Below, one piece after another: positions 5,229 to 22,654 of a stretch of DNA of 64,000 nt. The DNA comes from Gephyromycinifex aptenodytis. Lineage in GTDB: Bacteria > Actinomycetota > Actinomycetes > Actinomycetales > Dermatophilaceae. Made by a program: the position numbers and the translations under genes. The number at the start of each line of letters is the position of its first letter. The stretch's first letter is position 1. The stretch covers positions 2,170,001-2,234,000 of the forward strand of contig NZ_CP051155.1 in assembly GCF_012277275.1 (NCBI RefSeq). Direction: 5' to 3'. The notes beneath the pieces were generated by a model that saw only the letters and a program-made list of their open reading frames with translations, had not been told where the DNA came from and ran no database searches.

Positions 5229-7255
5229 GCGGTGTGTCCTTTCACAAGGCCGACCAGGTCGTCGGCGTGCAGATCATCGATGGCATAGCTGGGGGCGTGG
5301 AGCGCCGCCGCGAGTTCGCGGGCCAACCCGAACCGCAAACCTCGGGGATCCTCGGTGTCGACCACCACCCAGGTGACACGTTCGTCCTGCGCGAGATGGT
5401 TGGCCAACTCCAGGGCTTCCCGGCGGGCGTCCTTATCGCCGGCCTCAAGGGCGGCGTTGGCGCGCCCGTCGCTGACGAGCACAACAAGCGGACGCAACAA
5501 GGGCTCGCGTCGCAACAGTGGGGTGAGCAGACCCGCGGCGGCAACAAGCCCCGCAGCCAACGGGGTTCGCCCACCGACCGGCATCTGCTCCAGGAGACGA
5601 TTAGCGACCTCGACCGAGGCCGTCGGCGGCAGCAACACCTCGGCGTCCCGGCGCCGGAACGAGATGAGCGCCACCTTGTCGCGCTTCTGGTAAGCGTCCA
5701 GCAGCAGGCTCAGCACGGCACCCTTGCTGGCCACCATCCGGCCTCGGGCCGCCATCGACCCACTGGCGTCGACGACGAACAAGATGCAGGAACCCGTGCG
5801 CCGCTCGCGCACCTTGGCGTGCCAGTCCGCCGGGCGCACTTCGATGAGGGGAGCCTGCACCGCGCCGCTTGAAGCCTTCGGGTCGAGGCTGCCACGGCGG
5901 GCCCGCTGGTGCACTGCCGCAGCGCGCAAGGTCGCATCCAGAGCCAGATCGTCTGGGATCTGGGTGGGGCGAGCCCGCACGTACCTGCCGCGCCGGTCGG
6001 CGCTGCGGCTGCGGTGGCGCCGACCGGAGCCGCGACGCGCCTTGCGGTCGGTGTCGGGTTCGAGCGCACGGACGCGGAACGGTTCGCCCGGGGGTGGCGC
6101 CGGCAGTTCGCCGTCGACCGGGCCCGGACCTGCGTCGGGGGGGTCGTCGGACAGCTCCGTCTGGGCACCGTCCGGCCCGACCAGACCTTCGTGGCTGCGC
6201 GGGGTTTCCCCTTCACCGGGGGGAGGTTCGGACGCGGGTTGGCTCGACTCGTCGGAGTCGTCGGAGTCCTCGCTTTGATCCGCCTCTGCCGGCCCCTGCG
6301 AGTCACCGTCATCCTGACCCGTCGGCGGCGTCTCAGTTTCCTGCGGCGGCGGGTCAGCGTCGTCATTCGGGGTCGGGCTGGGCGGTGGCGGGGCAGGCAT
6401 CGCCTCACGGCGACGATGCGCGAGCGCCAACTCCGCGACGGCCAGCACATCCGCGACGCTGACCCGTTCGCGCCCCTGCCAGGCGGCGTGCGCCCGAGCC
6501 GCTTCGGTCAAGGACAGATCTGCCCGGTGGCCGGCGACGTAGGCCGAACAGGCGAGCTCGGCGATGGTTGCAGCAACCTCCAGCGGCACCTGCACCCGGG
6601 CTACCCGCTCGCGCGCCGAGGTGAGCCGCGTCCGCAGCGACTCCTGCTCGGTCTCCCATCGGCCAGCGAACGAGGCGGGGTCGGCGTCGTAGGCGCGTCG
6701 GCGCCGCAACAACTCCACCCGCAGGGCCGGGTCCCGCTCGCCGACGACGTCGACGCACAGCCCGAACCGGTCCAGAAGCTGAGGACGTAGCGACCCTTCC
6801 TCGGGGTTCATCGTGCCCACGAGCGAGAAGCGGCTCGGGTGGCTGGCCGAAAGACCTTCCCGTTCAACGTGGTTCACGCCGTCGGCAGCGGCGTCCAGGA
6901 CCAGATCAACGAGATGGTCGTCGAGCAGGTTGACCTCATCCACGTACAGCACGCCCTCATCGACGGCGGCGAGTAGCCCCGGCGCGAACACCGGGCGGCC
7001 CTCCTGCAGGCTGCGCTGCAGATCCAACCCGCCGGCCACCCGGTCCTCGGTCGCACCGAGCGGAAGGGTGCGCAGCGGCGTCCCCGGGGGTAACAACTGG
7101 GCGAGCGCGCGGACCGCCGTCGATTTCGCAGTGCCTTTCTCGCCGCGCAGCAACACCCCGCCGATCTGTGGCCGGATCGCGACCAGCAGAAGCGCCAAGC
7201 GCAGCTGCTCCTGACCGACCAGGGCGGTGAACGGGTACCCGATAGCGGAACTCAC
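5225..7255 (-). CDS. ChlI-ChlD fusion chelatase subunit with VWA domain
   Basis: A 676-residue fusion of an AAA+ ChlI half and a ChlD-type half. Walker A GEKGTAKST lies at residues 38-46, Walker B is VLYVDEVNLLDD, and the SLVGTMNPEEGSLRPQLLDRFG loop follows. Residues about 275-400 form a low-complexity Pro/Glu/Asp-rich linker, as in ChlD. A C-terminal von Willebrand A domain carries a MIDAS motif (FVVDASGSMAARG, about residue 494) for metal-dependent contact with the chelatase subunit. Unlike many degenerate ChlD subunits, the AAA half keeps both Walker motifs. The GTG start overlaps the CobN stop by four bases. It is the ATP-driven partner expected for CobN in actinobacteria, replacing CobS/CobT. 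Confidence 0.9.
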   Translation of the reverse strand: MSSAIGYPFTALVGQEQLRLALLLVAIRPQIGGVLLRGEKGTAKSTAVRALAQLLPPGTPLRTLPLGATEDRVAGGLDLQRSLQEGRPVFAPGLLAAVDEGVLYVDEVNLLDDHLVDLVLDAAADGVNHVEREGLSASHPSRFSLVGTMNPEEGSLRPQLLDRFGLCVDVVGERDPALRVELLRRRRAYDADPASFAGRWETEQESLRTRLTSARERVARVQVPLEVAATIAELACSAYVAGHRADLSLTEAARAHAAWQGRERVSVADVLAVAELALAHRRREAMPAPPPPSPTPNDDADPPPQETETPPTGQDDGDSQGPAEADQSEDSDDSDESSQPASEPPPGEGETPRSHEGLVGPDGAQTELSDDPPDAGPGPVDGELPAPPPGEPFRVRALEPDTDRKARRGSGRRHRSRSADRRGRYVRARPTQIPDDLALDATLRAAAVHQRARRGSLDPKASSGAVQAPLIEVRPADWHAKVRERRTGSCILFVVDASGSMAARGRMVASKGAVLSLLLDAYQKRDKVALISFRRRDAEVLLPPTASVEVANRLLEQMPVGGRTPLAAGLVAAAGLLTPLLRREPLLRPLVVLVSDGRANAALEAGDKDARREALELANHLAQDERVTWVVVDTEDPRGLRFGLARELAAALHAPSYAIDDLHADDLVGLVKGHTA

Positions 7256-10200
7256 GACCCGACACCCGAATCGACGGTGTCTTCCACGTCAGCCTCGGCC
7301 TCCAAGTAGGCGGAGGTGAGTGCGTCCCGCATCTCCTGCTCAGCAGCCCACAGCCCGCGCTGGGCCATGTCGAGCAGCTTGTCCAGAATGTTGTGCAACG
7401 CGTACGGGTTGACCTGGGAGAACCACTCCTGCATGCCCGGGTCCAGCGCATAGCGGCGCGCCACGCGATCCCACAGCGCGTCGTCGACGACGTCGGAGGT
7501 CGCCTCCCACCCGGCAAGAATGTCCAGGACTTTGGACAGGTCGCCCGCGCCCTTGTATCCGTGCCGCTGCAGGCCCGAGATCCACGCGTCGTTGAGGATG
7601 CGGGAGCGGATGACCAGGCGCGCCTCCTCGTTCGTCGTGCGGTTGCGGGCTCGGCGCGGGTCGGAGGAATCGCCGACGAACGACGTCGGGGCGCTGCCCC
7701 GGGCGACCGTGGCGGCCGCGATGAGGCCTCCGTAGTAGTTGTAGAAGTCCGTGCAGCTGAGCATGTCGTACTCGCGGCTGTCCTCGTTTTTCACCGTGGC
7801 GTCCATGCGGCGCAACTGGGCGGTGAAGGCCTGCGGTTGGGCTGTGCCGTACGTGCCGCGACCGTAGGCGTGCGCGGAATAGCGAACGTAGGTGGCGGCC
7901 AGATCATCCTTGGTCTCCCACGCCTTGGACTCCACCAGTTCCTCCACTCCCGCGCCGTAGCTACCCGGCGGGCAGCCGAAGACCCGCAGGGTCGCCAGCC
8001 GCCACGCCTCCTCGGCGTCGGCCCCGGCGGCCAGGTGCTCGGGCAGGTCGGCCAGGACGTGCGCGCGCAGGAAGTTGCTCTGCCCATCCTCCTCCAATGC
8101 CGCCACGAGTCCGGCCGCGTCGTCCAGCAGCTCGACCAGGTTGGGGAAGGCGTCCCGGAAGAAACCCGAGATGCGGGGCGTCACGTCGATCCGTGGACGG
8201 CCCAGCTCGGCGGGCGGAACCACCTCGACGCCGACGACGTGACCATCCGGCGCCCACCGCGGACGCAGCCCCCACAGGTGCAGGATCTCGGCGATGTCCT
8301 CACCGTGGCTGCGCATGTTGGCGGTGCCCCACAAGATGATGCCCACGTTGCGGGGGTAGGGATCTTGCGGGTTCTCCTGGGCGTACCGCTGCAGGAGGTT
8401 CTCAGCCAAAGCCACCCCCACCCGCCACGCGGCGGGGGTGGGCAGGGTGCGCGGATCCAGGGAGAAGAAGTTCCGGCCGGTGGGCAGGATGTCGGCATTG
8501 CCTCGGGTGGGGGCGCCGCTCTTACCCGGGGCGACGAAACCACCGGCGAGCGCGGTGAGCACGGACTCCATCTCGTCGCTGACGTGCGCCAACCGCGGCA
8601 GCAGGTCGTCGATGAGATAGACCAGGGCGGCCTCGACACCGCCATGCCTACAGCCCAGTACCTGCACGGCGGCTTGAGCGGCGGCCTGCGCCGGGTCTTC
8701 GGGGGCGCCGGCATCGGGGCCGGAAGCGAGCGGAACCTCTGTTGTCCCCAGGCGGGCGCAGGCGGCGTCGTACACGGCCTCGACCAGGGCGCCACACGCC
8801 TCGTTCGCCTGCCGCAGCCGGTCGATACCGGCGACATCACCCAGAGCAGGCAACACGCCAGCGACATCGGGTTCCGTCGCCAACTCCACACCCCAACAGT
8901 CGAGTACGGATTCGCGCAGACTCGGCACGTCGCCGTTGGGCAGGCGCAGGAGTTGCACGAGGTATTCCACGACCCGTTCGCGCGGCCCCAGGCCGGGGTT
9001 GTCGTCGCCGCGATCACTGGCCACCCGCCCCAGCACGTGCAGCCCGTCGCTGATGGCGTTGTCCGACAGTTCCAGCAGGTAGTGGCGGACGTGGTTGACG
9101 AACTCGCTCGGGTTGCCCAGCGCCGACTCGCGGTCGATCTCCAGGTCGACCTGCAGGTCCACCTCCTCGATCGCTTCCCACAACGCTTCGGCCACCCCTT
9201 CGGCGGCGGCGGCCGAGCGGGAGGCGGCGTCCGGGTACTCCCGGGCGAGCCGGTCGACCAGGGCGAGTTGGTCATCGAGGGCAGCGTTGCGCATCGGCGG
9301 GGTGAGGTGGTCGACCAAGGCGCAGTGGCTGCGTCGCTTGGCCTGGGTACCTTCGCCGGGGTTGTTGACGATGTAGGGGTAGATGTTGGGCAGGTCGGCC
9401 AGCGCCAACTCCGGATAGCACTCCTGGGACAAGCCGAGCGCCTTACCCGGCAGCCATTCCAGGCTGCCGTGGGTGCCGACGTGCACCACGGCATGCGCGC
9501 CGAAGACGTCGCGCATCCAGCGGTAGTGGGCCAGGTAGTGGTGCGGTGGGGGCAGCACAAGATCGTGCAGGTGCCCCTCGCTGACCTTCTCCAGTTCGCC
9601 GCGCGGGGGCTGGATCGTCACGAACACGTTCCCGTTCACGAAGCCCGCGAAGCTCAGCTCCCCCTGGTGCACGAACAACTCCCCGGGCGGAGCGCCCCAG
9701 GACTTCGCGAGGCCTTCCTGCACCCGCTGCGGCAGGTCGGCGTTCCACCGCACCGCGGTCGAGGTGTCCGCGTGGGCTTGGGCGCGGGCGTGCATCGCGT
9801 CCGGGGTCAACCATCGCTGGTCGCAGGTCAGAGCGTTGAGCATCCGATCCGAAAGTTCGTCGGCGGTGGCGAATTGCTCTGGTACGACATAACCCTCACG
9901 TGCCATCCGGGCCAGCAGCAGACGCACACTCTCGAACGAGTCCAGACCCGAGGCGCATCCGATGCGGTCGTTGCGGGGCGGGTGGTGATGGAAGACGACG
10001 GCGATACGCCGCTCGTGCGCGGGCAGACGCCGCAGCCGCGCCCAGGCCATGCTCAGGTCGGCCATCGAGTCGACCCGGTCCGGGATGGGCACCAGCCTGG
10101 TGATGAGCGCACCAGTGAGCGGATCGAGCATGTCGCTCTCCTTGGTCGCCACGACCCGGGAGATGAGCGCTCCGTCGAACTCCGGATGCGCGGCTTGCAC

Positions 10201-11181
10201 GGCGACGTCCATCGTCGGCATGCCCTGCTGGGTCGCCTCCCATTCGGTGCGCTCACCGGATGAGGTCATGGCTTGCAGGAGCGGGACGCCGAGCCCGGGG
10301 AAGACATCCGCCGAGGACGGGTCGACCGCCAACAAGGAGAAGCCCTGCAGGTTGATCACCGCGTCGACCAGGCTGGCCTCGTCGCGGCGGAAAAACCGAT
10401 TGACGATCGCGCGAGTGCCTGCCGTGCCGCGAACGGCGTCTTCGAAGCGGTGCGCGAACACCGGTATCACTTGAGCGCCGCGCTCCCGCAGTGCACCCAC
10501 CAACGCTTCTACGTGGGCGATGTTGTCGTTGAGCCAGAAGATCTGAGGAAACAGCAGGCCGATGGTGGGCGTACTCGCCTCCAGGCTGTCCAGGTAGCTC
10601 TGCTCAGCAGGGACCCAGCCGGTTTCCGGCAGCCACAGTCCTTCTGTCGGCACCGAGACCGGTGAGGCGACGGGCCCCGCGCTCGTCGCCGACCCGTCAA
10701 GGTCTTCCTCACCGGTCGGCTGCGCCTTCCCGCTGCGGCGACGCTGAACGGCTGCGACGACACCGGCCAAGGCAGCGGTGAGGTTGTCGACGCCTCCGAC
10801 ATCGAACAACCGGACCAGCGCCGCCCACGTGCCGTCCTGCAGCCCGTCGCCGTACTCGTGCGCGGTCGGCAGCACCGCGTCGTCGTCACCGGCCGGTTGC
10901 AGGTGCAGGTAGGGCCGGTTCGGGTCCCCGCGTTCGGGCAGCAGCTCTGCCAGGTCGGGCCAGGCCGGGCAGCTGGCCATCCCCCCGTGCAGGGACAACA
11001 CGACGGCATCGCAGGCCAGCGCGGTGGCCACGAAGTCCGCCGCCCCCTCGGCAGTGCCCACCTGCAACCCTGTGCGGGCAGCGATCCGCACGTCGATCCC
11101 CGCCTGCTGCAAGCGTCCCTGCACGCTCGCCAGGGTGGCCATCTCCCCGCCGCTGGCGCTGTAGTAACAGATCGACGTCAT
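7252..11181 (-). CDS. cobN: CobN-family cobaltochelatase large subunit
   Basis: At 1,309 residues this is the size expected for CobN, the porphyrinoid-binding subunit that inserts Co2+ into hydrogenobyrinate a,c-diamide. The CobN/ChlH core is clear, including FVTIQPPRGELEKVSEGHLH, VVHVGTHGSLEWLPGK, PNIYPYIVNNPGEGTQAKRR and, near the C-terminus, LSCTDFYNYYGGL. I chose ATG 11179-11181 (MTSICYYSASGGE): AAAGGA lies eight bases upstream and the ATG overlaps the radical SAM stop by four bases. The partners downstream are ChlI-ChlD and ChlI. It is unusual that the operon encodes corrinoid importers but no ring-synthesis enzymes. CobN may serve a pathway encoded elsewhere, or act on imported corrins. 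The family alone does not fix metal or direction. Confidence 0.88.
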   Translation of the reverse strand: MTSICYYSASGGEMATLASVQGRLQQAGIDVRIAARTGLQVGTAEGAADFVATALACDAVVLSLHGGMASCPAWPDLAELLPERGDPNRPYLHLQPAGDDDAVLPTAHEYGDGLQDGTWAALVRLFDVGGVDNLTAALAGVVAAVQRRRSGKAQPTGEEDLDGSATSAGPVASPVSVPTEGLWLPETGWVPAEQSYLDSLEASTPTIGLLFPQIFWLNDNIAHVEALVGALRERGAQVIPVFAHRFEDAVRGTAGTRAIVNRFFRRDEASLVDAVINLQGFSLLAVDPSSADVFPGLGVPLLQAMTSSGERTEWEATQQGMPTMDVAVQAAHPEFDGALISRVVATKESDMLDPLTGALITRLVPIPDRVDSMADLSMAWARLRRLPAHERRIAVVFHHHPPRNDRIGCASGLDSFESVRLLLARMAREGYVVPEQFATADELSDRMLNALTCDQRWLTPDAMHARAQAHADTSTAVRWNADLPQRVQEGLAKSWGAPPGELFVHQGELSFAGFVNGNVFVTIQPPRGELEKVSEGHLHDLVLPPPHHYLAHYRWMRDVFGAHAVVHVGTHGSLEWLPGKALGLSQECYPELALADLPNIYPYIVNNPGEGTQAKRRSHCALVDHLTPPMRNAALDDQLALVDRLAREYPDAASRSAAAAEGVAEALWEAIEEVDLQVDLEIDRESALGNPSEFVNHVRHYLLELSDNAISDGLHVLGRVASDRGDDNPGLGPRERVVEYLVQLLRLPNGDVPSLRESVLDCWGVELATEPDVAGVLPALGDVAGIDRLRQANEACGALVEAVYDAACARLGTTEVPLASGPDAGAPEDPAQAAAQAAVQVLGCRHGGVEAALVYLIDDLLPRLAHVSDEMESVLTALAGGFVAPGKSGAPTRGNADILPTGRNFFSLDPRTLPTPAAWRVGVALAENLLQRYAQENPQDPYPRNVGIILWGTANMRSHGEDIAEILHLWGLRPRWAPDGHVVGVEVVPPAELGRPRIDVTPRISGFFRDAFPNLVELLDDAAGLVAALEEDGQSNFLRAHVLADLPEHLAAGADAEEAWRLATLRVFGCPPGSYGAGVEELVESKAWETKDDLAATYVRYSAHAYGRGTYGTAQPQAFTAQLRRMDATVKNEDSREYDMLSCTDFYNYYGGLIAAATVARGSAPTSFVGDSSDPRRARNRTTNEEARLVIRSRILNDAWISGLQRHGYKGAGDLSKVLDILAGWEATSDVVDDALWDRVARRYALDPGMQEWFSQVNPYALHNILDKLLDMAQRGLWAAEQEMRDALTSAYLEAEADVEDTVDSGVGS

Positions 11182-12275
11182 GATGGCGTCCTTTCGCAGG
11201 TAGCGATGGTGCGGTAGATCAGGCACGTCAGGTGGGCGTTGCCCGGCTCGAGACCGGCATCCAGCGCAGCCTCCAGACGGGACGGGCAATCTCCTGGGCA
11301 GCGGCCCTGTAGCTCGCATTCCTGGCAGGGACCGGTGAGGTGGACGTCGCGGAACTGGCGCTGCAGCGCTGCCCAGTCGACGTCGCCGACATGTCCGGCA
11401 GCCCGCGCCGGGTCGCCCACACTCTGGCTGCACGGGTAGACGGTGCCGTCCGGTGCCACGGCCATGCTCTGCCCGAGGGCGGCATGGCAATACGGTGCGG
11501 GAGTTCGCGCCACAGCGTTCGGGTGCGCCCCCGCATCGGGCGCATCGGCCGGCCTGCGCACCTGCACCGTGACGGGGATGGGCGCCGGGCGCAGGGCTCG
11601 GCGTACCGTTTCCAGTTCGCGCCAGGTGAACGGCGCCGTGCGCAACCGCGCGATCTGCCGCACCGCGTGATGCAAGTCGGTGATGCCGCGCGCTACTTCC
11701 TTCGGATCAGGCAGGAGGTCGTCGCGGCCGCGCGCCGCCCCTTGGGAGACCAGCGGGTCCAGCGCAAGACCGACGACGTTCGGGTAGGCGGCCAGCAGCA
11801 AAGCAAGTTCGGCCAACCGCGTCGCGTTGACGGCGCTGAGCACAGCCGTGACCCGCACCGGGATTTCGCGGGCCGCGAGCAGCCCCAGACCGGCGAACGT
11901 CTCCCGAGCGTGGCCGCGCACCTGCTCCTGCACTTGAGGTGGGCCATCGATGCTCACCCCGACCTGCACCCGGTACCTGGCCAGCAGATCCAGTACCGGC
12001 GGCGTCAACCGGGCAGCGTTGGTCTGAACGGCCACAGTTGCTGGCAGCGCCTCGGCGGCGATGCGCTGGCAGACCTGCTCGATGATCGCCGGGTTCAACG
12101 TCGGTTCCCCACCAGCGAACTGCACGTGGAACGGCAACCCGGACTGCGCCGCCAGGTCGAGCGCTGCATGCGCGGTCGCGGGGCTCATCCGGCCGCCGAG
12201 CAGACCCCGATAGCAGTACGTGCAATCAAGGTCGCAGGCCCCGGTGGGCCACAGCACTAGAGACCGGATTGGCAT
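11178..12275 (-). CDS. Radical SAM/SPASM-domain enzyme in the corrinoid operon
   Basis: A 365-residue radical SAM protein. The [4Fe-4S] cluster motif is CDLDCTYC (Cys14, Cys18, Cys21), followed by FAGGEPTLNP (the SAM-binding GGEP) and VSIDGP. The C-terminal part has a complete-looking SPASM cysteine set: YCHAALGQ, VYPCSQ, then CQECELQGRCPGDC (C-x2-C-x5-C-x3-C) and a final LTCLIY, so two auxiliary clusters are likely. The layout resembles anaerobic sulfatase maturases and peptide-modifying maturases. The start ATG 12273-12275 has GGGAGG five bases upstream. The gene overlaps the hydrolase upstream by 19 bases and CobN downstream by four. Substrate unknown: a peptide is usual for SPASM enzymes; a tetrapyrrole is possible given the neighbours. 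Confidence 0.85.
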   Translation of the reverse strand: MPIRSLVLWPTGACDLDCTYCYRGLLGGRMSPATAHAALDLAAQSGLPFHVQFAGGEPTLNPAIIEQVCQRIAAEALPATVAVQTNAARLTPPVLDLLARYRVQVGVSIDGPPQVQEQVRGHARETFAGLGLLAAREIPVRVTAVLSAVNATRLAELALLLAAYPNVVGLALDPLVSQGAARGRDDLLPDPKEVARGITDLHHAVRQIARLRTAPFTWRELETVRRALRPAPIPVTVQVRRPADAPDAGAHPNAVARTPAPYCHAALGQSMAVAPDGTVYPCSQSVGDPARAAGHVGDVDWAALQRQFRDVHLTGPCQECELQGRCPGDCPSRLEAALDAGLEPGNAHLTCLIYRTIATCERTPS

Positions 12276-13666
12276 AGCGCCTCCCGATCCAGGATGTGTG
12301 CGGTCTTCCAATCGCCGCCGGCGCGCGCCGACCACCCCCCGGCCAGCCGGGCCTCGAGTACCGAATCGCAAGTGAGCACTTCCGGGGCAGCATGATCGAG
12401 CGGCGGGATCGCCAGCTGCGCGATGTGCGGGGACACCACCGCGACCGCGCTGCGATCTAAGGCTCTGAGCAGCATCAGTTCACGCTCCTGAGCACTCAGG
12501 TCATGAGCTGACACGACAATCAGGTCCACCCCGCGCTCGACCAGCGCCAGAGTCGCCTCCGGGTGCCGCCCGTCCCGCAGGTCCACGGCCGCGACCAGCA
12601 ACGAACCCGCTCGGGCCACAACCGCGTTCTCGGCCCGCTCGGGGCGCCGGCGCCGCCCTGAAACGCAGGCGAACGCGCCCTCGGTGTCGCTGCCGATGAC
12701 CACCGGCGCAGCGTCGTCGGCCACCTCGCGCCCCGGCGCCACCACGAGAAGCTCCGGCGCATCGGCACCATCACCGCCGGACCGGCCGACCACCACCCGT
12801 ACCCGCGTACCCGGGCGCGTTCCAGGCTCGCGCTCATCACCAGGGTGTTCTGGTGCGGGTCCACCGGCCAGCGTGGCCCAGGTCTGTGGACGGCGGCCGG
12901 ACAACGCCTCGGCCCGCTCGCACCACATCCCCTCGGCTAAGGGCATGTCGTGGACGAGGACCTGTGGCGTCGGGGAACTGCGCTCCGCACGGGTGGCGCC
13001 CTGCGCGTCGTAGATGGCCGAGCTGGCGCTGCGGGCATCGAACTGTCCGTCGACGCCGGTCCGGTTGGCCACCAACACCGGGATCCCGTTCTCGGCGGCT
13101 CTGGCACGCCAGATACGGCGCGGGTCGAGATCCCCACACGGCCAGTTGGACGGCACGAGCAGGGCTTTAGCCCCGCGCAGTCGTAACGCCCGAGCCGGAC
13201 CGGCGTAGTAGGTGTCGGCGCAGATGAGCAACCCGACCGGGCCCCACGGGGTGTCGATGGGACGTGCCTGAGCCGGTTCCCCACGGCTGGCCCAACGGCT
13301 CTCGGCGACGAGCTTGCGGTGATGGCCGGCCAACCCGGTCGGCGAGACGAGCATCGCCGAGTTGAACAGCGAACCGTCCGGGTCGCGCTCCAGGTATCCG
13401 GCCGCGCACCACACTCCCAGCCCGGAACACACCTTCTCCAACGCGTCCAGCGTCGGGCCGTGGCGAGGTTCGGCCACGGCTCGGGCTTCCTGCACGCTGC
13501 CGAAGCCATATCCCGCGACGGCGAGTTCGGGTGCCAGGACGAGCTGCGCGCCCAGATCTGCGGCGTGCCGCACCGCTTCGATGAGCGCCGCCCGATTCTG
13601 CGCCGGCTGACTCCGGTCCGGGGCCAGGTGCGCCAACCCCACCCGCACGTAGTCAGGCTGCGTCAT
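12257..13666 (-). CDS. Carbon-nitrogen hydrolase (nitrilase superfamily), double-length
   Basis: A 469-residue protein. Residues 1 to about 270 form a nitrilase-superfamily amidase domain with the Glu-Lys-Cys triad visible: Glu47 in LVLAPELAVAGYG, Lys118 in GHHRKLVAES, Cys149 in GLLICADTYY. After a Pro/Arg-rich linker, the second half again shows nitrilase-like strands (LLVAAVDLRDGRHPEATLALVERGVDLIVVSAHD) but no matching triad, suggesting a degenerate duplicated half. It overlaps the ATPase gene by 14 bases and the radical SAM gene by 19 bases. In this operon it could hydrolyse side-chain amides of corrinoids or an amide on a peptide. Neither is shown by the sequence; the amidase chemistry is the firm part. 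Confidence 0.75.
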   Translation of the reverse strand: MTQPDYVRVGLAHLAPDRSQPAQNRAALIEAVRHAADLGAQLVLAPELAVAGYGFGSVQEARAVAEPRHGPTLDALEKVCSGLGVWCAAGYLERDPDGSLFNSAMLVSPTGLAGHHRKLVAESRWASRGEPAQARPIDTPWGPVGLLICADTYYAGPARALRLRGAKALLVPSNWPCGDLDPRRIWRARAAENGIPVLVANRTGVDGQFDARSASSAIYDAQGATRAERSSPTPQVLVHDMPLAEGMWCERAEALSGRRPQTWATLAGGPAPEHPGDEREPGTRPGTRVRVVVGRSGGDGADAPELLVVAPGREVADDAAPVVIGSDTEGAFACVSGRRRRPERAENAVVARAGSLLVAAVDLRDGRHPEATLALVERGVDLIVVSAHDLSAQERELMLLRALDRSAVAVVSPHIAQLAIPPLDHAAPEVLTCDSVLEARLAGGWSARAGGDWKTAHILDREALCQSGL

Positions 13667-14750
13667 CGGCGTTCCCCATCCGCTGGAGCCATTTCAGGGC
13701 CAGCGCGTGAACGTCGGCGAGGTTGCGGTGCTGGCTGGCGCCGTACTCCGGGTGGGTCAGCGTCCACGGCAGCTGCCCGTCGGTGATGCTCAACCGCACT
13801 TCGGCACCGCTGTCCTGGACCGGGTCGGAGCGCTCCGTTCCGTACTCGGCTGGGCGACCGACGTCATACCCGGCGCGGCGCAGGCACCGCTCACCCAACG
13901 CCGCTTTCATTCCGACGCCGTCGACGACGGCGCGCGGCCGCCCAGTCGAGTCGGCCTGGAAGGTGAGCGTGGCCAGATCGAAGTGCACACCCGGCGCCGC
14001 GAACGGAGCAGCCAGCAGGCCAGCCTGGGCCAGATCCTCCGGTCCGCCGACGTGTAGTTCTTCGCTGCGCCCCGCGACCCAGACCTCGTCGGCGTAGGAC
14101 AGGATCGCTTCGATGTCGTGGGTGCACACGATGACGGCGATGCCGCGTTCGCGGCTGATCCGCCGTGTCAGTTCCAGCACCGAGACCCGTCCGGGTGGGT
14201 CCAGGAAGGCCGTCGGTTCGTCCAGGAGCATGACCTGCGGCTCTTGAGCCAGCGCCCGGGCGATCATCACCCGCTGGCGCTGCCCGTCCGACAACTCTGC
14301 GAGTTCCTGCTCGGCAAGGTGCTCGGCACTCACCGCGGCCAAGGCGTCAGCGATGATCTGCCGGTCGTGCTCGTGCAGCCTGCCGGTCAGGGACGAGTGC
14401 GGGTGCCGCCCGAGCCCGACGACGTCGCGGGCCAGCAGCCGCCCGGGGTCGAAGCGGTCGGTCAGGACGGCCGCCAGGAGCTGGGCCAGCTCACGCCGCT
14501 TCATCCCGGCCACGTCGCGACCGGCGATCTCCACCCGCCCACCGAGCATCGGCTGTAGCCCGGCAATCGAGCGCAGCAGGGTGCTCTTGCCTGCGCCGTT
14601 CGGGCCGACCAGGCCGATGAGTTGGCCTGCCTCGACACTGGCGTGCACGTCGGAGAGGACCACGTGCGCCGATCCGCGCCCGCCCGGGTAACCGACGGCG
14701 ACCTCGTGCAATGCCAACAACGGGCCGTGTTGCTGCAGCGGGCGGCTCAT
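13653..14750 (-). CDS. BtuD/FecE-like ABC importer ATPase with C-terminal extension
   Basis: A 365-residue ATPase of the BtuD/FepC group that powers the permease encoded just upstream. Walker A is GPNGAGKST (about residues 49-57), the signature is ELSDGQRQRVMIARAL, Walker B is VMLLDEPTAFLD, and the H-loop is VIVCTHDIE. The usual family length is about 260 residues. This protein has roughly 115 more after the ATPase core, containing RAVVDGVGMKAALGERCLRR and LPWTLTHPEYGASQHRNL. I do not recognise that tail. The start overlaps the permease stop by four bases; the end overlaps the hydrolase gene. Confidence 0.88.
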   Translation of the reverse strand: MSRPLQQHGPLLALHEVAVGYPGGRGSAHVVLSDVHASVEAGQLIGLVGPNGAGKSTLLRSIAGLQPMLGGRVEIAGRDVAGMKRRELAQLLAAVLTDRFDPGRLLARDVVGLGRHPHSSLTGRLHEHDRQIIADALAAVSAEHLAEQELAELSDGQRQRVMIARALAQEPQVMLLDEPTAFLDPPGRVSVLELTRRISRERGIAVIVCTHDIEAILSYADEVWVAGRSEELHVGGPEDLAQAGLLAAPFAAPGVHFDLATLTFQADSTGRPRAVVDGVGMKAALGERCLRRAGYDVGRPAEYGTERSDPVQDSGAEVRLSITDGQLPWTLTHPEYGASQHRNLADVHALALKWLQRMGNADDAA

Positions 14751-15862
14751 GTGTTCATCCCCCGGTGTCGGCGGAGCAGAATGTAGATGACCACGGGCGC
14801 CCCGAACGCGGCGTTGACAGCGTTCAGCGGCAGCACCCCATCGCCGGGGAGACCGGCAGCGACATCAGCGGCCAGCGCCAACGACGCGCCGATGAGGGCG
14901 CACCCCGGCAGCAGGATGCGGTGATCGGAGGTGGCGAAGTAGCCGCGGGCAAGGTGCGGGATGGCGATCCCGAGGAAGCCGATCGGCCCACAGAACGCGG
15001 TGGCGCTGCCCGCGAGGATGGCGCTGCTGAGCACGATGGCGCCCCGCACCAGGTGCAGGTTCATCCCCATCGTCTGTGCGTACCGGTCTCCCAAGAGCAG
15101 AGCGTTGAGCCATTTGGCCAGCAGCATCGTGAACGCGACCCCGATGAGCAGCACCGGGCCCAGCACGCGCAGGTTCGGCCAGGTCACTCCGTGGTAGCTG
15201 CCGAAACCCCAGCGCACGTACTGCGCCACCAGTTCCGGGGTGGCACCGGCCAGCAACACCGTGACGGCGGCGGAGACGAGGTAGCCGATCATCACCCCGA
15301 GCAACAGCAGGGTGTTGGAGGATTTCAGGAATCGTCCGGCGGCCAGGATGAGCAGCATCACCAGCGCTGAACCGAACGACGAAGCCAGGATGAGTCCCAG
15401 GTCCCCGCTGAGGCCCAGACCGGAAGTCAGCGACGCCGCGTACGGTGAGGTACCGGCCAGCAGGACGATGATCGCCACCCCCAGGCCCGCCCCGGAGGAC
15501 ACTCCGAGCACGTACGGGTCGGCGAGAGGGTTGCGGAACAAAGTCTGCATCTGCAGCCCGGTGACACCGAGCGAGGCGCCCACCAGAAGCGCCGTGATGG
15601 TGCGTGGGATGCGGATGTCGAACAGCACCGTCCGCACGACCGCGGGCGCTTCACCGCCGGTGATCGCGGCCAGCAGTTGCTCGGGCGGAATGCGCAGCGC
15701 ACCCAAGGTCAGGCCTGCCAGAGCGACCAGCGCGACGATGAGCAGGACCAGGGCGAACCGGGCGGTGAGACGCGCTGTTCGGGTGACGGCCCGGTCCTGC
15801 ACGGAGGACGTCGAGGCGACGTCCTCCGTGCAGCGCTCCCGGGTCGGAGCAGGTGAGCTCAT
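14747..15862 (-). CDS. FecCD/BtuC-family ABC transporter permease (second importer)
   Basis: A 371-residue polytopic permease of the BtuC/FecCD family. Signatures include DIRIPRTITALLVGASLG, QTLFRNPLADPYVLGVSSGA, and C-terminal FCGPIGFLGIAIPHLARGYF, with about nine or ten hydrophobic segments and a longer hydrophilic N-terminus before the first helix. It is paralogous to the permease at the window start. ATGA overlaps join it to the binding-protein gene upstream and the ATPase gene downstream. Together they form a complete importer under riboswitch 2. Corrinoid or cobalt-chelate uptake is inferred from regulation and neighbours. Confidence 0.88.
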   Translation of the reverse strand: MSSPAPTRERCTEDVASTSSVQDRAVTRTARLTARFALVLLIVALVALAGLTLGALRIPPEQLLAAITGGEAPAVVRTVLFDIRIPRTITALLVGASLGVTGLQMQTLFRNPLADPYVLGVSSGAGLGVAIIVLLAGTSPYAASLTSGLGLSGDLGLILASSFGSALVMLLILAAGRFLKSSNTLLLLGVMIGYLVSAAVTVLLAGATPELVAQYVRWGFGSYHGVTWPNLRVLGPVLLIGVAFTMLLAKWLNALLLGDRYAQTMGMNLHLVRGAIVLSSAILAGSATAFCGPIGFLGIAIPHLARGYFATSDHRILLPGCALIGASLALAADVAAGLPGDGVLPLNAVNAAFGAPVVIYILLRRHRGMNT

Positions 15863-17109
15863 CCCTTGGGGACCTGCTCGTAGTAGGTGAACTCGTGGTT
15901 CGGCATCAGTTCGGGGTGCAGGATCGCCACGAGGTCAGCCAGGACCAGGTCGGGGCGCACCACACCGGACTGCCAGTAGTCGTTACCCCCACCGGGGGTC
16001 AGCTTCTTGGAGAAAGTCCAGACGTCGCCGTTCTGCACCGGGGTCAGTTTGCCTAGGCGTGGGTCGTCCTTGATCGGTTCGGCCAGGCTCTCCCACCGCT
16101 CGGAATGGGTGGCCCCGATCCAGTACTGCGCCTTGGCGCCCTTGGCGAGCACCACCTCCAGATCGAGCGGTTTGGTGCCGACACCGGCGACGTCCTTGAG
16201 GACGTATTCGCCGCCGGCGTCCTTGATCTCGTTGGCGAGGTAGCTGTCGGCGGCGCTGGCGTACCAGGTGCCCTTACTCATCGCCCCGAGCAGAACCGTT
16301 GGACGCTCAGTGACGCCTTGGGCCTTGGTCGCCACCGACTGATAGTCGGCCTTGATCTTGCCGTAGACCTCGTTGGCCTGCTTCTCACGGTTGAGCAGGA
16401 TCGCCTTGAACTTGGTCCATTCCGCCCGGCCCAGCGCGGTTTTCTCCAGCCACTCCGCGTCGGCGATCACCGGGATCTTCAACTCGGCGATCTTGGCGTT
16501 CTCCGCACTTGCGGTACCGGAGGTGACGTACACATCCGGCGCCAGGGAGGCGAGTTTCTCGACGTTGACTTCGCCGTTGGCGTTTTTGATGCTCTGGATC
16601 TGACCTGAGTCGACGGCGTCCTTGGCGGGCCCCTCAGCGAGCTTCTCGGCCGAGGAGACGGCCACCAGCACGCCCATCCGGTCCAGTAGTTCGTAGGCGG
16701 GTACCTGCGTGGTGGAGCCTGCGGCAACCTTCTTGACCGGGACGCTTACCTTGGTCGCTTTGGCGAGTTCGCCCTCCAAGCTCGGTTCGGGCGCACCACA
16801 TTGAACGAACACATACGACTCCGGCGCAGCCCCCGGCGACGGTTGTGTGACCGTGACGACCTTGTAGGACTTCTTGTATTCGACGCTGATGTTGGTGGCG
16901 TCTTCGAACTCCACCTTGTCCGGGAAGTAGTCCTTGGACTCATCGAAGTCGGTGATACAGCCGTCATCGCCTGAACCCTCGGCAGAGGCTGCACCGGTCG
17001 AACCGGCGGTGCCGGAGGGGGAGGTACCGCAGGCAGGAATAAGAGCGAGCATCGGCATGAGAACCGCGGCTGCAACGATCGGGCGATTCTTCAGGAGGAG
17101 GTCAGGCAC
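15859..17109 (-). CDS. Substrate-binding lipoprotein of the second corrinoid-type importer
   Basis: A 416-residue lipoprotein with lipobox LIPACG (Cys27), a Ser/Gly/Thr-rich tether, and a class III binding fold. After the tether comes KSYKVVTVTQPSPGAAPESYVFVQCG, a longer preamble than in BtuF, then lobe 1 with VPAYELLDRMGVLVAV and LASLAPDVYVTSGTA, and lobe 2 with RPTVLLGAMSKGTWYASA. It differs clearly from the first binding protein, so the two importers may take different ligands. The GTG start has AAGGAG six bases upstream. It is the first gene behind riboswitch 2, about 80 bases from the aptamer's 3' element. Confidence 0.85.
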   Translation of the reverse strand: MPDLLLKNRPIVAAAVLMPMLALIPACGTSPSGTAGSTGAASAEGSGDDGCITDFDESKDYFPDKVEFEDATNISVEYKKSYKVVTVTQPSPGAAPESYVFVQCGAPEPSLEGELAKATKVSVPVKKVAAGSTTQVPAYELLDRMGVLVAVSSAEKLAEGPAKDAVDSGQIQSIKNANGEVNVEKLASLAPDVYVTSGTASAENAKIAELKIPVIADAEWLEKTALGRAEWTKFKAILLNREKQANEVYGKIKADYQSVATKAQGVTERPTVLLGAMSKGTWYASAADSYLANEIKDAGGEYVLKDVAGVGTKPLDLEVVLAKGAKAQYWIGATHSERWESLAEPIKDDPRLGKLTPVQNGDVWTFSKKLTPGGGNDYWQSGVVRPDLVLADLVAILHPELMPNHEFTYYEQVPKG

Positions 17110-17189
17110 GTAAAGCTCCTTGAACGTGCCGACAAAGGATGCGCAGCCGGACGGAGCCTGGCTCCGGGCGACCCGCCCTTCCTTCGAGG

Positions 17190-17345
17190 GCGTGACATGG
17201 TCGGAACCACGAGAAGGCGACCGGACTCATCCCCTTCGTGGGGCATCACCGTTGCGGGACAGTGCCGGAATCTCACCGGCTTCGCTTCTTGTGGGACGCC
17301 TGGGCGAGGCGGTCCAGGCAGCGTCAGTCTGGCACGCGCACCTCG
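17190..17345 (-). promoter_or_regulatory. Cobalamin riboswitch 2 (compact form)
   Basis: Minus-strand core GAAGCCGGTGAGATTCCGGC, then CTGTCCCGCAACGGTGAT (plus 17245-17288), and the 3' element GAGTCCGGTCGCC (about 17216-17228). It is nearly the same as riboswitch 1 in the core and also lacks the long peripheral domain: about 19 bases lie between CGGTGAT and GAGTCC. It controls the nine-gene operon that starts at 17109. The remaining sequence of 17110-17502 holds no recognisable gene; the promoter presumably lies between 17346 and 17502. Confidence 0.88.
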
Positions 17346-19305: not shown

Positions 19306-21128
19306 GTCAAGGCCTGGACGTAGTCGGGCTCGCTCAACAACTCGCTGTGTCGCCCGCGGCGCAGCACGGAGCCGTTCTCGTCCAACTGCACCACCTCATC
19401 TGCCGCCGCAAGGAGTTCCGGTGTCGTCGTGAGCAGCAGGGTGGGTCCTCCCCCGCGGGCCTGCCGCAGTTGGTTGGCGATGCGGGCCGTGGTCACGGCA
19501 TCGACGTTAGTGGTGGGTTCGTGCAGAACAAGCAGATCAGCGGAGCGATATAACGCTCGGGCCAAAGCGACTCGTTGCCGTTGACCGCCGGATAGTGTGC
19601 GGCCTTCGGGGCCGACGCGGGTATCGAGCCCATCGCGTTGGGTGCGGGCCACCTCGTCGCAGGTCGTCGCAGCCAGGACGGCAGCAAGCCGCTGATCACC
19701 GGTCGGCCCATCCGGCGGCGGATCGAGGTCATCGCCGAGAGCGGCGGTGTCGGCCGGGGATTCGTAGCCGCAGATATTGGTGCGCAGCGTGCCGTCGAAC
19801 AGATCCACCTGATGCGGGGGCGCAAGGATCAGCCGCCGTTGCGTCTCGATCCTCAGTTGAGCCAAATCGACCTCGCCCCAATACAGCTGACCGCTCTGGG
19901 GTGACTTCCGGCGTGCCAACAGGTCCGCGAGCGCCTCCGCGACGAGACCGGGCGAGAGCACTGCCACCAGCCCGCGCACTTCCAGATCCAGGTCGACGGG
20001 CTGTTCCAACCGGCCGGCCAGCGTGACATCGCGCAGCTGCAGGCGGCGGGACTCGGGCTGGTCCTCGCAGCTGCCCTGAGTCAACGCCGGCGGGGTCTCT
20101 AGCACGCCGATGACCCGATCGGCCGAGGCCTGGGAGGCACTGAACACCGCAGCCGTGTCGATACCGATGCTGCGCAGTGGCGGCCCCATCGTCTGCGCCA
20201 GACCGGCAACGGCGGCGACATCGCCCACGGTGAGTTGACCGGCCAGCCCCAGGTAGGCGGCCAACACGGTCAGCCCCACGATGAAGAATCCGACGACGAC
20301 GTTCACGCCGGCCGCGTACGCGCCGCGGACGATCCTGGTGCGCAGCGTGGCCGCGAGCGCCCGGTCTCCAACGGCAGCGAAGCGGGTGACGGCCTGGTCT
20401 TGGGCCCGCAGGCCTTGCACGACCCGCAGCCCGGCAACGAAATCGGCCGCCGATCCGGAGGCAGCAGCCTCGGCCGTGCGTTCCACCCGGGTGTAGGGCC
20501 GGATCGGGCGGATACCGCGCACCGAGACGAACACAATGATCGGCACCGACACGGCGACGACTGCTGCGAGCCGCCAGTCCAGCACGGCAAGGGCGATGAT
20601 CGAGCCACCCACCGTCACGGCATGTCCAGGCAGGGTCGTGACCGTCGTCATCCCGCGCGAGGTCGCCGGCACGTCCGTGGAGGCGACGCTGACGAGGTCG
20701 CCGGGCAGCCGGGCGGGGCCGCCGAGACCGCGTGGGTCCAGGAGCCGGTCGATGAGCGCCAGACGCAGGTCGTGCTGGACCACGCAGGCGCCGACGTCCC
20801 CGGACAGCCGTAAGCCGGTGGCGATACAGCGCAGGCCGTACAACACCAGGATCAAGACGCACCAGCCGGCGGCGGCGAGGACATCCCCTGCGACCAGACC
20901 GCTGTCGATCGAGCGGCCCACCGCCAAGGGCACGAGCAGCCCGAGTGCACTGGTGAGGATCGATCCAAGGCTGGAGGGGATGAGCCAGCGGCCTCCGCCT
21001 CGAATGAGCCGCTTCACCAGGGCGTCACCGTCAGCGATCCCGGCGGTGGGGATGGCGCGCTGCCCCAGCGGGGGAGCATCGGCGGGCACGCGGCCCGGAC
21101 GCCACACCCTCACGAGACCTCCGAGCAT
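19302..21128 (-). CDS. ABC half-transporter with degenerate ATP site but canonical signature
   Basis: A 608-residue exporter-type half-transporter. The membrane domain has about six helices. In the ATPase domain the Walker A position reads LSPGLVAEAL (about 391-400) with no GxxGxGKS/T. The Walker B aspartate is His (LLVLHEPTTNVD, His536) and the H-loop histidine is absent (LLLTTTPELL). The signature LSGGQRQRVALARAL (512-526) is perfect. It can therefore donate the signature to the partner's site but can hardly bind ATP normally itself. The start overlaps the upstream unknown gene by 19 bases and the end overlaps the partner by four, so one operon is likely. Confidence 0.85.
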   Translation of the reverse strand: MLGGLVRVWRPGRVPADAPPLGQRAIPTAGIADGDALVKRLIRGGGRWLIPSSLGSILTSALGLLVPLAVGRSIDSGLVAGDVLAAAGWCVLILVLYGLRCIATGLRLSGDVGACVVQHDLRLALIDRLLDPRGLGGPARLPGDLVSVASTDVPATSRGMTTVTTLPGHAVTVGGSIIALAVLDWRLAAVVAVSVPIIVFVSVRGIRPIRPYTRVERTAEAAASGSAADFVAGLRVVQGLRAQDQAVTRFAAVGDRALAATLRTRIVRGAYAAGVNVVVGFFIVGLTVLAAYLGLAGQLTVGDVAAVAGLAQTMGPPLRSIGIDTAAVFSASQASADRVIGVLETPPALTQGSCEDQPESRRLQLRDVTLAGRLEQPVDLDLEVRGLVAVLSPGLVAEALADLLARRKSPQSGQLYWGEVDLAQLRIETQRRLILAPPHQVDLFDGTLRTNICGYESPADTAALGDDLDPPPDGPTGDQRLAAVLAATTCDEVARTQRDGLDTRVGPEGRTLSGGQRQRVALARALYRSADLLVLHEPTTNVDAVTTARIANQLRQARGGGPTLLLTTTPELLAAADEVVQLDENGSVLRRGRHSELLSEPDYVQALT

Positions 21129-21877
21129 GGCCGTGCGCCAAAGGCCGACCTGAGCGCACGAGCATCACAACTGGCCTCGTTCACCGCCAGGCCGATTCCC
21201 TGGAGCGCTTCGTTCGGCGACTCGGCGTGCGAGCTGGGTGTTCCTCGATGGTGTTCAGGGTGCAGCAACGTCACCGTGAGGGCTTCTCGAGGTTGCTTCG
21301 CAGTGTCACCGGCTTCATGCGTCGACGACGGGTCGTCGGCTTCAAGTGCTGCTTCTCGGGCTATGCAGTCAAGCACGTCTGCGACCTCGTGGCGGGGTGG
21401 GCGGTCGAGCACGACAAACACGTGCAGACCTACGAGCGGGGCGGGGGTCGGCTCTGATTCTCCCTGCCCCGACCCGCGCTCGCACTCCGGCGCCCCACTT
21501 TCGCGGGGTCCCTGCTGCGGCAAGGGCAACGGCGCGGCTATCGCCACCACGAACACTCGTAGCGAGGGTCCGTGCCGGTAGGCCAACCCCGCCCGTGCCA
21601 CATTGCCGTTCACGCGGCGCACCAGCACTTCCTCCGGTTCCCAGCCCAGCAGCCGGGCAACGGTGCGCTCCGGCAGGGTCTGCGGTGAGTTCGGCGGGGT
21701 CTGCACGCACTCTTCATGTAGGCAGACCCGGCGTACAACGCCCGTCATCAGTGCGCCGTTCGGGCTGAGTTGGTAGGCACGGCAAGGCTGTTCACAGTCG
21801 GCGATGAGCATTCGGCCGACTCGGTGGATGCGCAGCCAGCCGCGCTCTTCGACCAGGTTCGTCACGAGCCGGGTCAT
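21110..21877 (-). CDS. Unrecognised protein with four clustered cysteines, first main gene after riboswitch 3
   Basis: I do not recognise this 255-residue protein. The N-terminal third (residues 1-110) looks structured and carries Cys28, Cys32, Cys52 and Cys57 (C-x3-C-x19-C-x4-C) in IADCEQPCRAYQ and RRVCLHEEC, a possible metal or iron-sulfur site. It is followed by RTVARLLGWEPEEVLVRRV. The second half is hydrophilic and low-complexity except for a predicted strand, LVGLHVFVVLD. The ATG at 21875-21877 overlaps the stop of a 21-codon ORF (ATGA). A GTG at 21953-21955 in the same frame would add 26 residues. It overlaps the ABC gene by 19 bases. It may be a metal-binding or sensory partner of that transporter. 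Confidence 0.55.
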   Translation of the reverse strand: MTRLVTNLVEERGWLRIHRVGRMLIADCEQPCRAYQLSPNGALMTGVVRRVCLHEECVQTPPNSPQTLPERTVARLLGWEPEEVLVRRVNGNVARAGLAYRHGPSLRVFVVAIAAPLPLPQQGPRESGAPECERGSGQGESEPTPAPLVGLHVFVVLDRPPRHEVADVLDCIAREAALEADDPSSTHEAGDTAKQPREALTVTLLHPEHHRGTPSSHAESPNEALQGIGLAVNEASCDARALRSAFGARPCSEVS

Positions 21878-21939
21878 CGGGAGCGCCCTTGGTCGTGGGC
21901 GATCTGTGGCCTCTGCTGCGCAGGCGCGGTCGTTCTCAT
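21874..21939 (-). CDS. Possible 21-residue leader ORF coupled to the four-cysteine protein
   Basis: An ATG at 21937-21939 opens a 21-codon frame whose TGA overlaps the ATG of the following gene (ATGA). AGAAGAG lies about six bases upstream. The peptide is polar (Gln, Arg and Ala rich) and unlike any family I know. It could simply couple translation to the next gene, or the long in-frame GTG start of that gene could be the real one and this frame spurious. Confidence 0.3.
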   Translation of the reverse strand: MRTTAPAQQRPQIAHDQGRSR

Positions 21940-22101
21940 GCCGGTCTCTTCTCACCAGGTCCAGAGCGCTTGGGGTCCCGAGCGGGGGACTGAGCGCGGC
22001 GGGACCCCGGGACGGGGCCGGAGGAATGGGTGAATCTCAGCCCCGCCCCGGGGCGTCGGGTAGGCCGAAGCGCGTTAGTACGCAGCGGCCGGGCAGGCGC
22101 T

Positions 22102-22185: not shown

Positions 22186-22309
22186 GAGACCTCCCGAAAG
22201 CGACTCGGGGGTTGATCGGCCACTGGCCTTCGCGGACAGCATTAGCCGCGAGTGCTGGGGCCGCCTTCCCACGAGGCGACGACTGCAGGGCGCGCTGCAC
22301 GGCGTGCGA

Positions 22310-22495
22310 CGCACTGGCAGGTCTTCGGACTTGTGGGCGCTGCCGGGCCGGAGATCCAGCTCGGGTTTCTACTGGCCGTCGCTTCCCAGGTGGTCGTTCC
22401 CAGTGCTCATGACGGCGTTCGTTCCCACTCACCGCTGCGGGGCAGTCCCGGATTCGCACCGGGTTCCCTCTTGCGACTCCCCGCCGAGGCGGGGA
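22310..22495 (-). promoter_or_regulatory. Cobalamin riboswitch 3 (extended form)
   Basis: Minus-strand core GAGGGAACCCGGTGCGAATC, then ACTGCCCCGCAGCGGTGAG (plus about 22428-22475), and 3' element AAGTCCGAAGACCTGCCAGT (about 22317-22336). About 90 bases of peripheral sequence lie between them, including repeated CTGGGAA motifs. This is the large architecture, in contrast to the compact riboswitches 1 and 2. It heads the unit with the tiny ORFs, the four-cysteine protein and the asymmetric ABC pair. No other feature is supported in 21940-22650 apart from the small ORFs listed. Confidence 0.92.
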
Positions 22496-22654
22496 GAACC
22501 AGCGCTGCCAGCTTAGCCGTCGGGATCGTCGCAGGTGCTTCATTGACTCCTACCCACAGCGGCGGCGCTGGGTGGCGCGGCCGTCTGCCCCCCCGGGGGT
22601 AGCCACTTGGATCAGGTCGGGGGTGGCCGCGACGGGGGGTTGTCGGGGTATTGG

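Follow-up and report, generated by a model that had tools for sequence, protein, structure and literature searches.

Within a 64,000-nucleotide stretch of the Gephyromycinifex aptenodytis genome (contig NZ_CP051155.1, positions 2,170,001 to 2,234,000; hereafter the window), we studied a gene for a radical S-adenosylmethionine (SAM) enzyme with a SPASM domain, named rSAM below. The protein represents a narrow SPASM subfamily that is new, as is its genetic context: its gene lies in an operon led by an adenosylcobalamin (AdoCbl) riboswitch, directly before the gene for a variant of CobN, the large subunit of a class I chelatase. The two genes stay side by side in five orthologous operons, and this conserved pairing of rSAM with a chelatase suggests an undescribed chemical step in the bacterial recycling of B12-like molecules. 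We give a probability of about 0.4 to the reading that an imported corrinoid is the substrate of rSAM, within a salvage pathway ending at the dedicated chelatase. This best reading could not be separated by sequence alone from its rival, in which rSAM is a maturase of the chelatase.

rSAM is a SPASM enzyme of its own subfamily

A previous inspection of the window, hereafter the sequence-only reading, had proposed a SPASM-type radical SAM enzyme, and its coordinates proved exact, on the minus strand (Table 1). The Pfam Radical_SAM profile placed rSAM in the radical SAM superfamily (53.1 bits, cut-off 29.5) and the NCBIfam SPASM domain TIGR04085 passed as well (39.9 bits, cut-off 27); Pfam SPASM PF13186 scored 19.9 bits, slightly under its cut-off of 21.5. 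Besides the CxxxCxxC motif of the SAM-binding cluster, the protein carries the seven-cysteine SPASM pattern (C263-x13-G277-x4-C282, C317-x2-C320-x5-C326-x3-C330 and C351), which, by the SPASM consensus, would assign these cysteines to two auxiliary [4Fe-4S] clusters, as had been claimed for two auxiliary clusters. All ten cluster cysteines were invariant in an alignment of four orthologs, and also when three distant SPASM proteins were aligned with them.

Among the 25 families listed of the 57 that matched, rSAM reached no family-level NCBIfam cut-off, TIGR04085 alone passing. The top profile among them was PapB, with 89.9 bits against a cut-off of 340, and the other named SPASM equivalogs listed (nif11 maturase, anSME, mycofactocin maturase and others) likewise stayed under their cut-offs. 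This agrees with the earlier view that rSAM has no place in a known SPASM family. The cut-offs of AhbC, AhbD and NirJ were not reached either, and these three were absent from the 19 families that the window protein matched at E up to 1e-9. The AhbC and AhbD profiles weakly matched three of four members of the rSAM family (E up to 1e-9; cut-offs 650 and 500).

An AlphaFold2 model of rSAM had a mean predicted local distance difference test (pLDDT) score of 64.3, with a usable core and a poor SPASM part. The nearest solved folds were 5why, 6efn and 4k37, which we take to be CteB, SkfB and anSME, at ~17% identity over the fold match; because the SPASM part of the model is poor, this ranking rests mainly on the core. 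The organism's own genome (3.45 Mb, one contig) gave a single match to rSAM.

rSAM and the variant CobN are fixed partners in five operons

The operon holds nine genes on the minus strand, in the order btuF-btuC-btuD-nitrilase-rSAM-cobN-chlID-chlI-cbiZ, with the AdoCbl riboswitch in front. Neighbouring genes overlap at every one of the eight junctions, by 4 to 19 bases; the rSAM frame shares 19 bases with the nitrilase and 4 with CobN. AdoCbl riboswitches usually shut such genes off at high coenzyme, and the same direction is presumed here. The sequence-only reading had given neither the strand, nor the riboswitch, nor the remaining operon genes, and had not considered that rSAM might modify the chelatase.

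Orthologous operons were found in five genomes, including that of the window (G000), which belong to four families (f1, f16, f57 and f82) and two classes of Actinomycetota. G715 is of the same family as the window genome, G149 of another family of the same order, G537 of the same class, and G811 of the same phylum in another class. The order btuF-btuC-btuD-rSAM-cobN-chlID-chlI was kept in 5/5 operons, always with rSAM directly before cobN, so that the linkage to B12 functions that had been noticed is conserved and not accidental. The riboswitch leaders of G000, G149 and G715 reached the gathering score; those of G537 (41.1 bits, E 5e-6) and G811 (30.5 bits, E 9e-6) were below it yet correctly placed. 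CbiZ was encoded near the operon in four of the five genomes, being on the opposite strand in G811 and absent in G537.

The nitrilase behaved differently from CobN. It was intact in G000 and G149, broken in G715 and absent in G537 and G811. The copy of G715 is an in-frame 131-aa (amino acid) remnant (L021 8360-8752, plus strand) without the central part of the domain, its best Pfam stretch spanning profile positions 140-189 only, and the rSAM gene behind it is intact. Because it was lost or broken in three of five operons, we consider the nitrilase accessory and CobN the fixed partner, and the amidase was rejected as a functional partner of rSAM. The window's own nitrilase carries E, K and C in APELA, HHRKL and ICADT, presumably its catalytic residues. 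The description of rSAM as locked between an amidase and CobN was thus right about the two neighbours (PF00795 and PF02514) and about the tie to CobN, and wrong about the tie to the amidase.

Genome searches gave the same picture. rSAM matched 2/297 genomes of the order, 2/394 of the class and 2/149 of the family, and the N-terminus of the variant CobN was found in exactly these genomes. The CobN query consisted of the N-terminal 300 residues and did not pick up housekeeping CobN at E 1e-15. Since the three panels overlap and only ~5 to 15 candidates were scored per genome, the co-occurrence is strong but not exhaustive. A phylum panel (296 genomes), searched with rSAM only, yielded six matches at E up to 1e-22, among which those of G000 and G811 were orthologs by synteny. 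A contig scan with narrow patterns gave 13 loci, with L005, of the same sequence as G149, as the sole ortholog, and a plasmid search with rSAM gave one weak match (25%).

The variant CobN forms a separate clade with private cysteines

The CobN beside rSAM turned out to be a private second type and not the biosynthetic CobN, which corrects the sequence-only reading of this neighbour. In a tree of 15 CobN sequences, the five rSAM-linked proteins stood on one side of a 100/100 branch, apart from eight housekeeping CobN, to which they are ~36% identical; two nitrogenase-linked CobN made a third group. The window's variant is a CobN by its TIGR02257 score and by its ChlID and ChlI partners, and it scored higher with Mycobacterium tuberculosis (Mtb) CobN (691 bits) than with ChlH (448 bits) or HmuS (347 bits). 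A second, housekeeping CobN lies beside the de novo cob genes of the same genome, and two CobN are likewise encoded in G715 and in G811. In G537 the rSAM-linked CobN is the only one; the de novo cob cluster there has CbiX, so the variant should be dispensable for de novo synthesis. A role in de novo B12 synthesis is therefore unlikely. No rSAM match lay near CobN at the eight housekeeping loci, and no radical SAM gene was listed in four annotated neighbourhoods of plasmid CobN.

Fifty-four alignment positions distinguished the variant from the housekeeping CobN, and three of them are cysteines, C409, C1070 and C1143. All three were present in 5/5 variant CobN, in 0/8 housekeeping and in 0/5 plasmid-encoded CobN. 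As to the nitrogenase-linked proteins, that of G779 shares C409 only and that of G988 has none of them. Invariance among the five orthologs partly reflects ancestry, because all five come from Actinomycetota.

In HmuS, the histidine of the motif LSLDHxxEFMGG is described as reaching into the chelatase cavity (PMC12583661). The variant CobN lacks this motif and has LSCTDFYNYYGG in its place, which we matched letter to letter; on this alignment C1143 would fall two residues before the position of the HmuS cavity histidine. The other cavity histidine is retained (HVGTHG, H571), and the T of this motif is found in HmuS and two haloarchaeal CobN, against K in housekeeping CobN. The heme ligands of HmuS are Met-79 and His-254. 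An AlphaFold2 model of the variant CobN, built from a two-row alignment, was poor (mean pLDDT 37.8, predicted template modelling score 0.28).

SPASM enzymes accompany chelatase genes in a second kind of cluster

Two other matches of the phylum panel, in G988 and G779, were SPASM proteins ~24% identical to rSAM that are also encoded beside a chlID gene. In both clusters a NifH-NifD-type fusion comes next, followed by another nitrogenase-like subunit, and these score to the CfbC and BchL families; a FecCD importer is on the same contig as the G779 cluster. The remaining matches, G862 and G899, had no chelatase or nitrogenase-like context. SPASM enzymes beside class I chelatase genes were thus seen in two kinds of cluster. 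The rSAM tree held 14 of the 15 collected rows, with L009 omitted as incomplete and the G862, G899, G811 and L012 rows N-terminally trimmed.

At two loci (L062 4290-10811 and L061 2-6179), ChlID, a SPASM radical SAM protein, the NifH-NifD-type fusion and the second nitrogenase-like subunit follow one another in a row, with a FecCD importer near in L062. This looks like an uncharacterised tetrapyrrole-reductase cluster, and we infer that the CobN of L069 and L065 are linked to these contigs.

A proposed salvage route for an imported corrinoid and its rivals

The surrounding genes belong to corrinoid-handling families, and tetrapyrroles are known substrates of other radical SAM enzymes; on these grounds we read the operon as a candidate corrinoid-salvage module that would be on when adenosylcobalamin is scarce. 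BtuFCD would bring in the corrinoid, and CbiZ, plus the nitrilase where present, may cut corrinoid amide bonds, as their families suggest. From its fold class, rSAM would use a 5'-deoxyadenosyl radical to remove one hydrogen atom, either from the macrocycle or from a side chain, and the electron would pass to its two auxiliary clusters. The product would then be the substrate of an ATP-driven class I chelatase made of the variant CobN, ChlID and ChlI, which may insert or exchange the central metal; the radical SAM step could come ahead of or after metal insertion. The distant SPASM proteins beside ChlID, which adjoin relatives of the tetrapyrrole reductases CfbC and BchL, favour such a role. 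The compact operon behind its AdoCbl riboswitch, its core kept across two classes with CbiZ nearby in four of five genomes, the shared distribution of rSAM and a separate CobN clade of altered cavity motifs that de novo synthesis should not require, and the lack of a precursor gene at the five loci and of an RRE-like N-terminus in rSAM point the same way.

Several observations weigh against a corrinoid substrate. The top-scoring NCBIfam profiles, among those listed, and the nearest folds are those of peptide or protein modifiers and not of AhbC or NirJ, and we know of no SPASM enzyme that acts on a corrin. The distant chelatase-linked SPASM proteins did not group with the rSAM family in the tree, where the relevant forks were without resolution. 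Tight pairing of rSAM with CobN would, besides, be just as likely if CobN were the protein that rSAM modifies. Given that the nearest profiles and folds belong to enzymes that modify peptides or proteins, the main rival has the chelatase as substrate: rSAM could be a dedicated maturase of the variant CobN, making a thioether cross-link or a formylglycine-like oxidation at a private cysteine, comparable to the maturation of sulfatases by anSME. We hold this for a serious, if doubtful, possibility, and the narrower claim that a cavity cysteine (C1143, C1070 or C409) is post-translationally modified for a somewhat more doubtful one. Immediate adjacency in every operon, identical distribution in three panels, the restriction of the three cysteines to the variant clade and the position of C1143 within the cavity motif described for HmuS (PMC12583661) all argue for a maturase. 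Yet the cysteines are only three of 54 clade-distinguishing positions, so that shared ancestry alone could account for them. None of the three lies in a complete C-x-P/A-x-R, which we take to be the anSME motif, and the nitrogenase-linked CobN keep one or none of them despite the SPASM protein in the ChlID clusters.

Since a CobN relative encoded in an uptake operon may act as a de-chelatase, as HmuS does (PMC12583661), the metal might instead be removed from an imported tetrapyrrole, as a cobalt harvest or from heme, with a radical step that opens or loosens the macrocycle. We consider this improbable. HVGTHG of the variant resembles HFG(T/A)HG of HmuS, a likeness that counts for little because the two haloarchaeal CobN sharing the T come from cob clusters. 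On the other side, the ATP-motor subunits ChlID and ChlI, typical of insertion, are kept in 5/5 operons, the variant is nearer to Mtb CobN than to HmuS, and AdoCbl control indicates B12 limitation rather than cobalt or iron limitation; the missing LSLDHxxEFMGG motif led us to reject HmuS membership. More improbable still is the proposal, made in the sequence-only reading, that rSAM matures a peptide made under B12 limitation, which we take as a ribosomal one that might bind, for instance, a metal or a corrinoid. The top NCBIfam profiles among those listed are indeed maturases of ribosomally synthesized and post-translationally modified peptides (RiPPs), all far under cut-off. However, the short precursor open reading frame suggested among the conserved neighbours did not materialise: none was conserved at the five loci, a precursor encoded elsewhere not having been searched for. 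What similarity there was between genomes at these loci fell mostly in the riboswitch leader, other matches being short and either at chance level or at coding ends, and the overlapping junctions leave no room for a precursor inside the operon. Nor does rSAM have an N-terminal extension like the RiPP recognition element (RRE), since its radical SAM core begins at about residue 5. Finally, that an unrelated SPASM maturase happens to sit in the operon is hardly credible. The family is indeed rare, and B12 genes are missing from the surroundings of distant SPASM genes at other loci (e.g. L006 to L011), but rSAM stands directly before cobN in all five genomes while nitrilase and cbiZ vary, and the five syntenic operons led us to reject a chance neighbour. 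Among the families listed, no known SPASM family with a target elsewhere in the genome emerged that would make this locus incidental.

Other features of the window

Table 1. Features of the rSAM operon, with coordinates in the window (residues of the variant CobN numbered from the start ATG at 11181)
Feature	Coordinates	Strand	Basis or remark
AdoCbl riboswitch RF01482, operon leader before btuF	17164..17309	-	55.4 bits vs gathering 50
BtuF-like substrate-binding protein	15859..17109	-	PF01497 86.9 bits
BtuC-like permease (FecCD family)	14747..15862	-	Pfam/NCBIfam profiles
BtuD-like ABC ATPase	13653..14750	-	Pfam/NCBIfam profiles
Carbon-nitrogen hydrolase (nitrilase superfamily), accessory	12257..13666	-	PF00795 110 bits
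SPASM radical SAM enzyme (rSAM), 365 aa	11178..12275	-	ATG at 12275, TGA at 11178-11180
CxxxCxxC of SAM-binding cluster (C14-x3-C18-x2-C21)	12213..12236	-	sequence; invariant in 4 orthologs
SPASM domain, seven cysteines C263 to C351	11223..11489	-	TIGR04085; two auxiliary clusters predicted
Variant CobN (class I chelatase large subunit), 1309 aa, directly downstream of rSAM	7252..11181	-	PF02514 1167 bits; TIGR02257 876 vs 822
Codon of variant-CobN C409 (IGCASGLD; housekeeping IGNAVGLD)	9955..9957	-	alignment
Codon of variant-CobN C1070 (FGCPPG; housekeeping FGSKPG)	7972..7974	-	alignment
Codon of variant-CobN C1143 (LSCTDF; housekeeping DSDDY)	7753..7755	-	segment equivalent to HmuS cavity motif LSLDHxxEFMGG
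ChlID-type AAA+/VWA chelatase motor subunit, 676 aa	5225..7255	-	Pfam/NCBIfam profiles
ChlI-type AAA+ chelatase motor subunit, 335 aa	4221..5228	-	Pfam/NCBIfam profiles
CbiZ, adenosylcobinamide amidohydrolase family, 393 aa	3043..4224	-	PF01955 191.5 bits

Three cobalamin-type riboswitches lie within 20 kb on the minus strand (2636-2764, 17164-17309 and 22299-22518), the first scoring barely above gathering. Each heads a transport operon, respectively a second btuF-btuC, the rSAM operon, and an operon in which two ABC exporter-fold genes come after a gene without family assignment; together they form a B12-regulon island. The third operon follows the strongest cobalamin riboswitch (94.3 bits) and opens with the gene for a 281-aa protein with nine cysteines (21110-21955, minus strand) that had no Pfam or NCBIfam match. 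The ABC exporter-fold pair (PF00664 and PF00005; 17503-21128, minus strand) belongs to this operon, which is the one next to that of rSAM, and in G537 homologs of the pair come directly after chlI in the rSAM operon (L020 3-3202). It is possible that the pair is an export step, or an import step of exporter fold, of the same pathway. G715 has two precorrin-8X methylmutase genes at distant sites (L041 and L048). Large AAA/helicase-type proteins encoded on the plus strand of the window at 33985-37929 and 48851-51931 (DUF4011 with AAA_11/AAA_12; ResIII with DUF3427) are possibly defence-related.

Comparison with known systems and significance

AhbC, AhbD and NirJ belong to heme and heme d1 synthesis. 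They are radical SAM enzymes, as rSAM is, and act on tetrapyrrole side chains (PMC7242693), which makes a tetrapyrrole substrate less unprecedented than the sequence-only reading had it, though none of the three is known to act on corrins. rSAM differs from them in scoring far below family level, in its expected substrate, a corrin, and in its operon partners, a class I chelatase and a B12 importer instead of siroheme genes. PapB, CteB, SkfB and anSME are closer by profile (among the families listed) or fold, but rSAM has neither a precursor peptide at the five loci nor an RRE extension.

The variant CobN resembles the CobNST and CobN-ChlID cobaltochelatases in its TIGR02257 score and its ChlID and ChlI partners; it differs in its separate clade, its altered cavity motifs, its three private cysteines and in being encoded with an importer and not with cob genes. 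The heme de-chelatase HmuS and BtuS of Bacteroides are likewise related to CobN and have their genes together with those for uptake (PMC12583661, PMC6460266), but the variant lacks the HmuS cavity motif, has ATP-motor subunits and is nearer in sequence to CobN. A parallel in gene content is seen in Chlorobium and Chlorobaculum, where CobN/ChlID-type genes lie beside cobalamin import genes and cobalt insertion into imported cobalamin has been speculated (PMC8620254). The rSAM operon shares this arrangement and adds a radical SAM enzyme, none being mentioned for the green sulphur genes in the accessible part of that paper. In the open-access literature, outside of which most subscription papers fall, we found no description of an rSAM-CobN pairing.

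Class I chelatases beyond chlorophyll and de novo B12 synthesis are described as a large group without functions (PMC12583661). At the rSAM locus a subtype of this group is tied to genes for B12 import, to an AdoCbl riboswitch and to just one radical SAM enzyme, and the question of what the extra chelatases do therefore becomes testable with two proteins. If true, each of the two outcomes would add new chemistry to B12 biology, be it a radical reaction on a corrin or the maturation of a chelatase by a radical enzyme. In the latter case the variant CobN would be, to our knowledge, the first radical-SAM-matured metal chelatase, and its modification would open to it metals or substrates outside the range of ordinary CobN.

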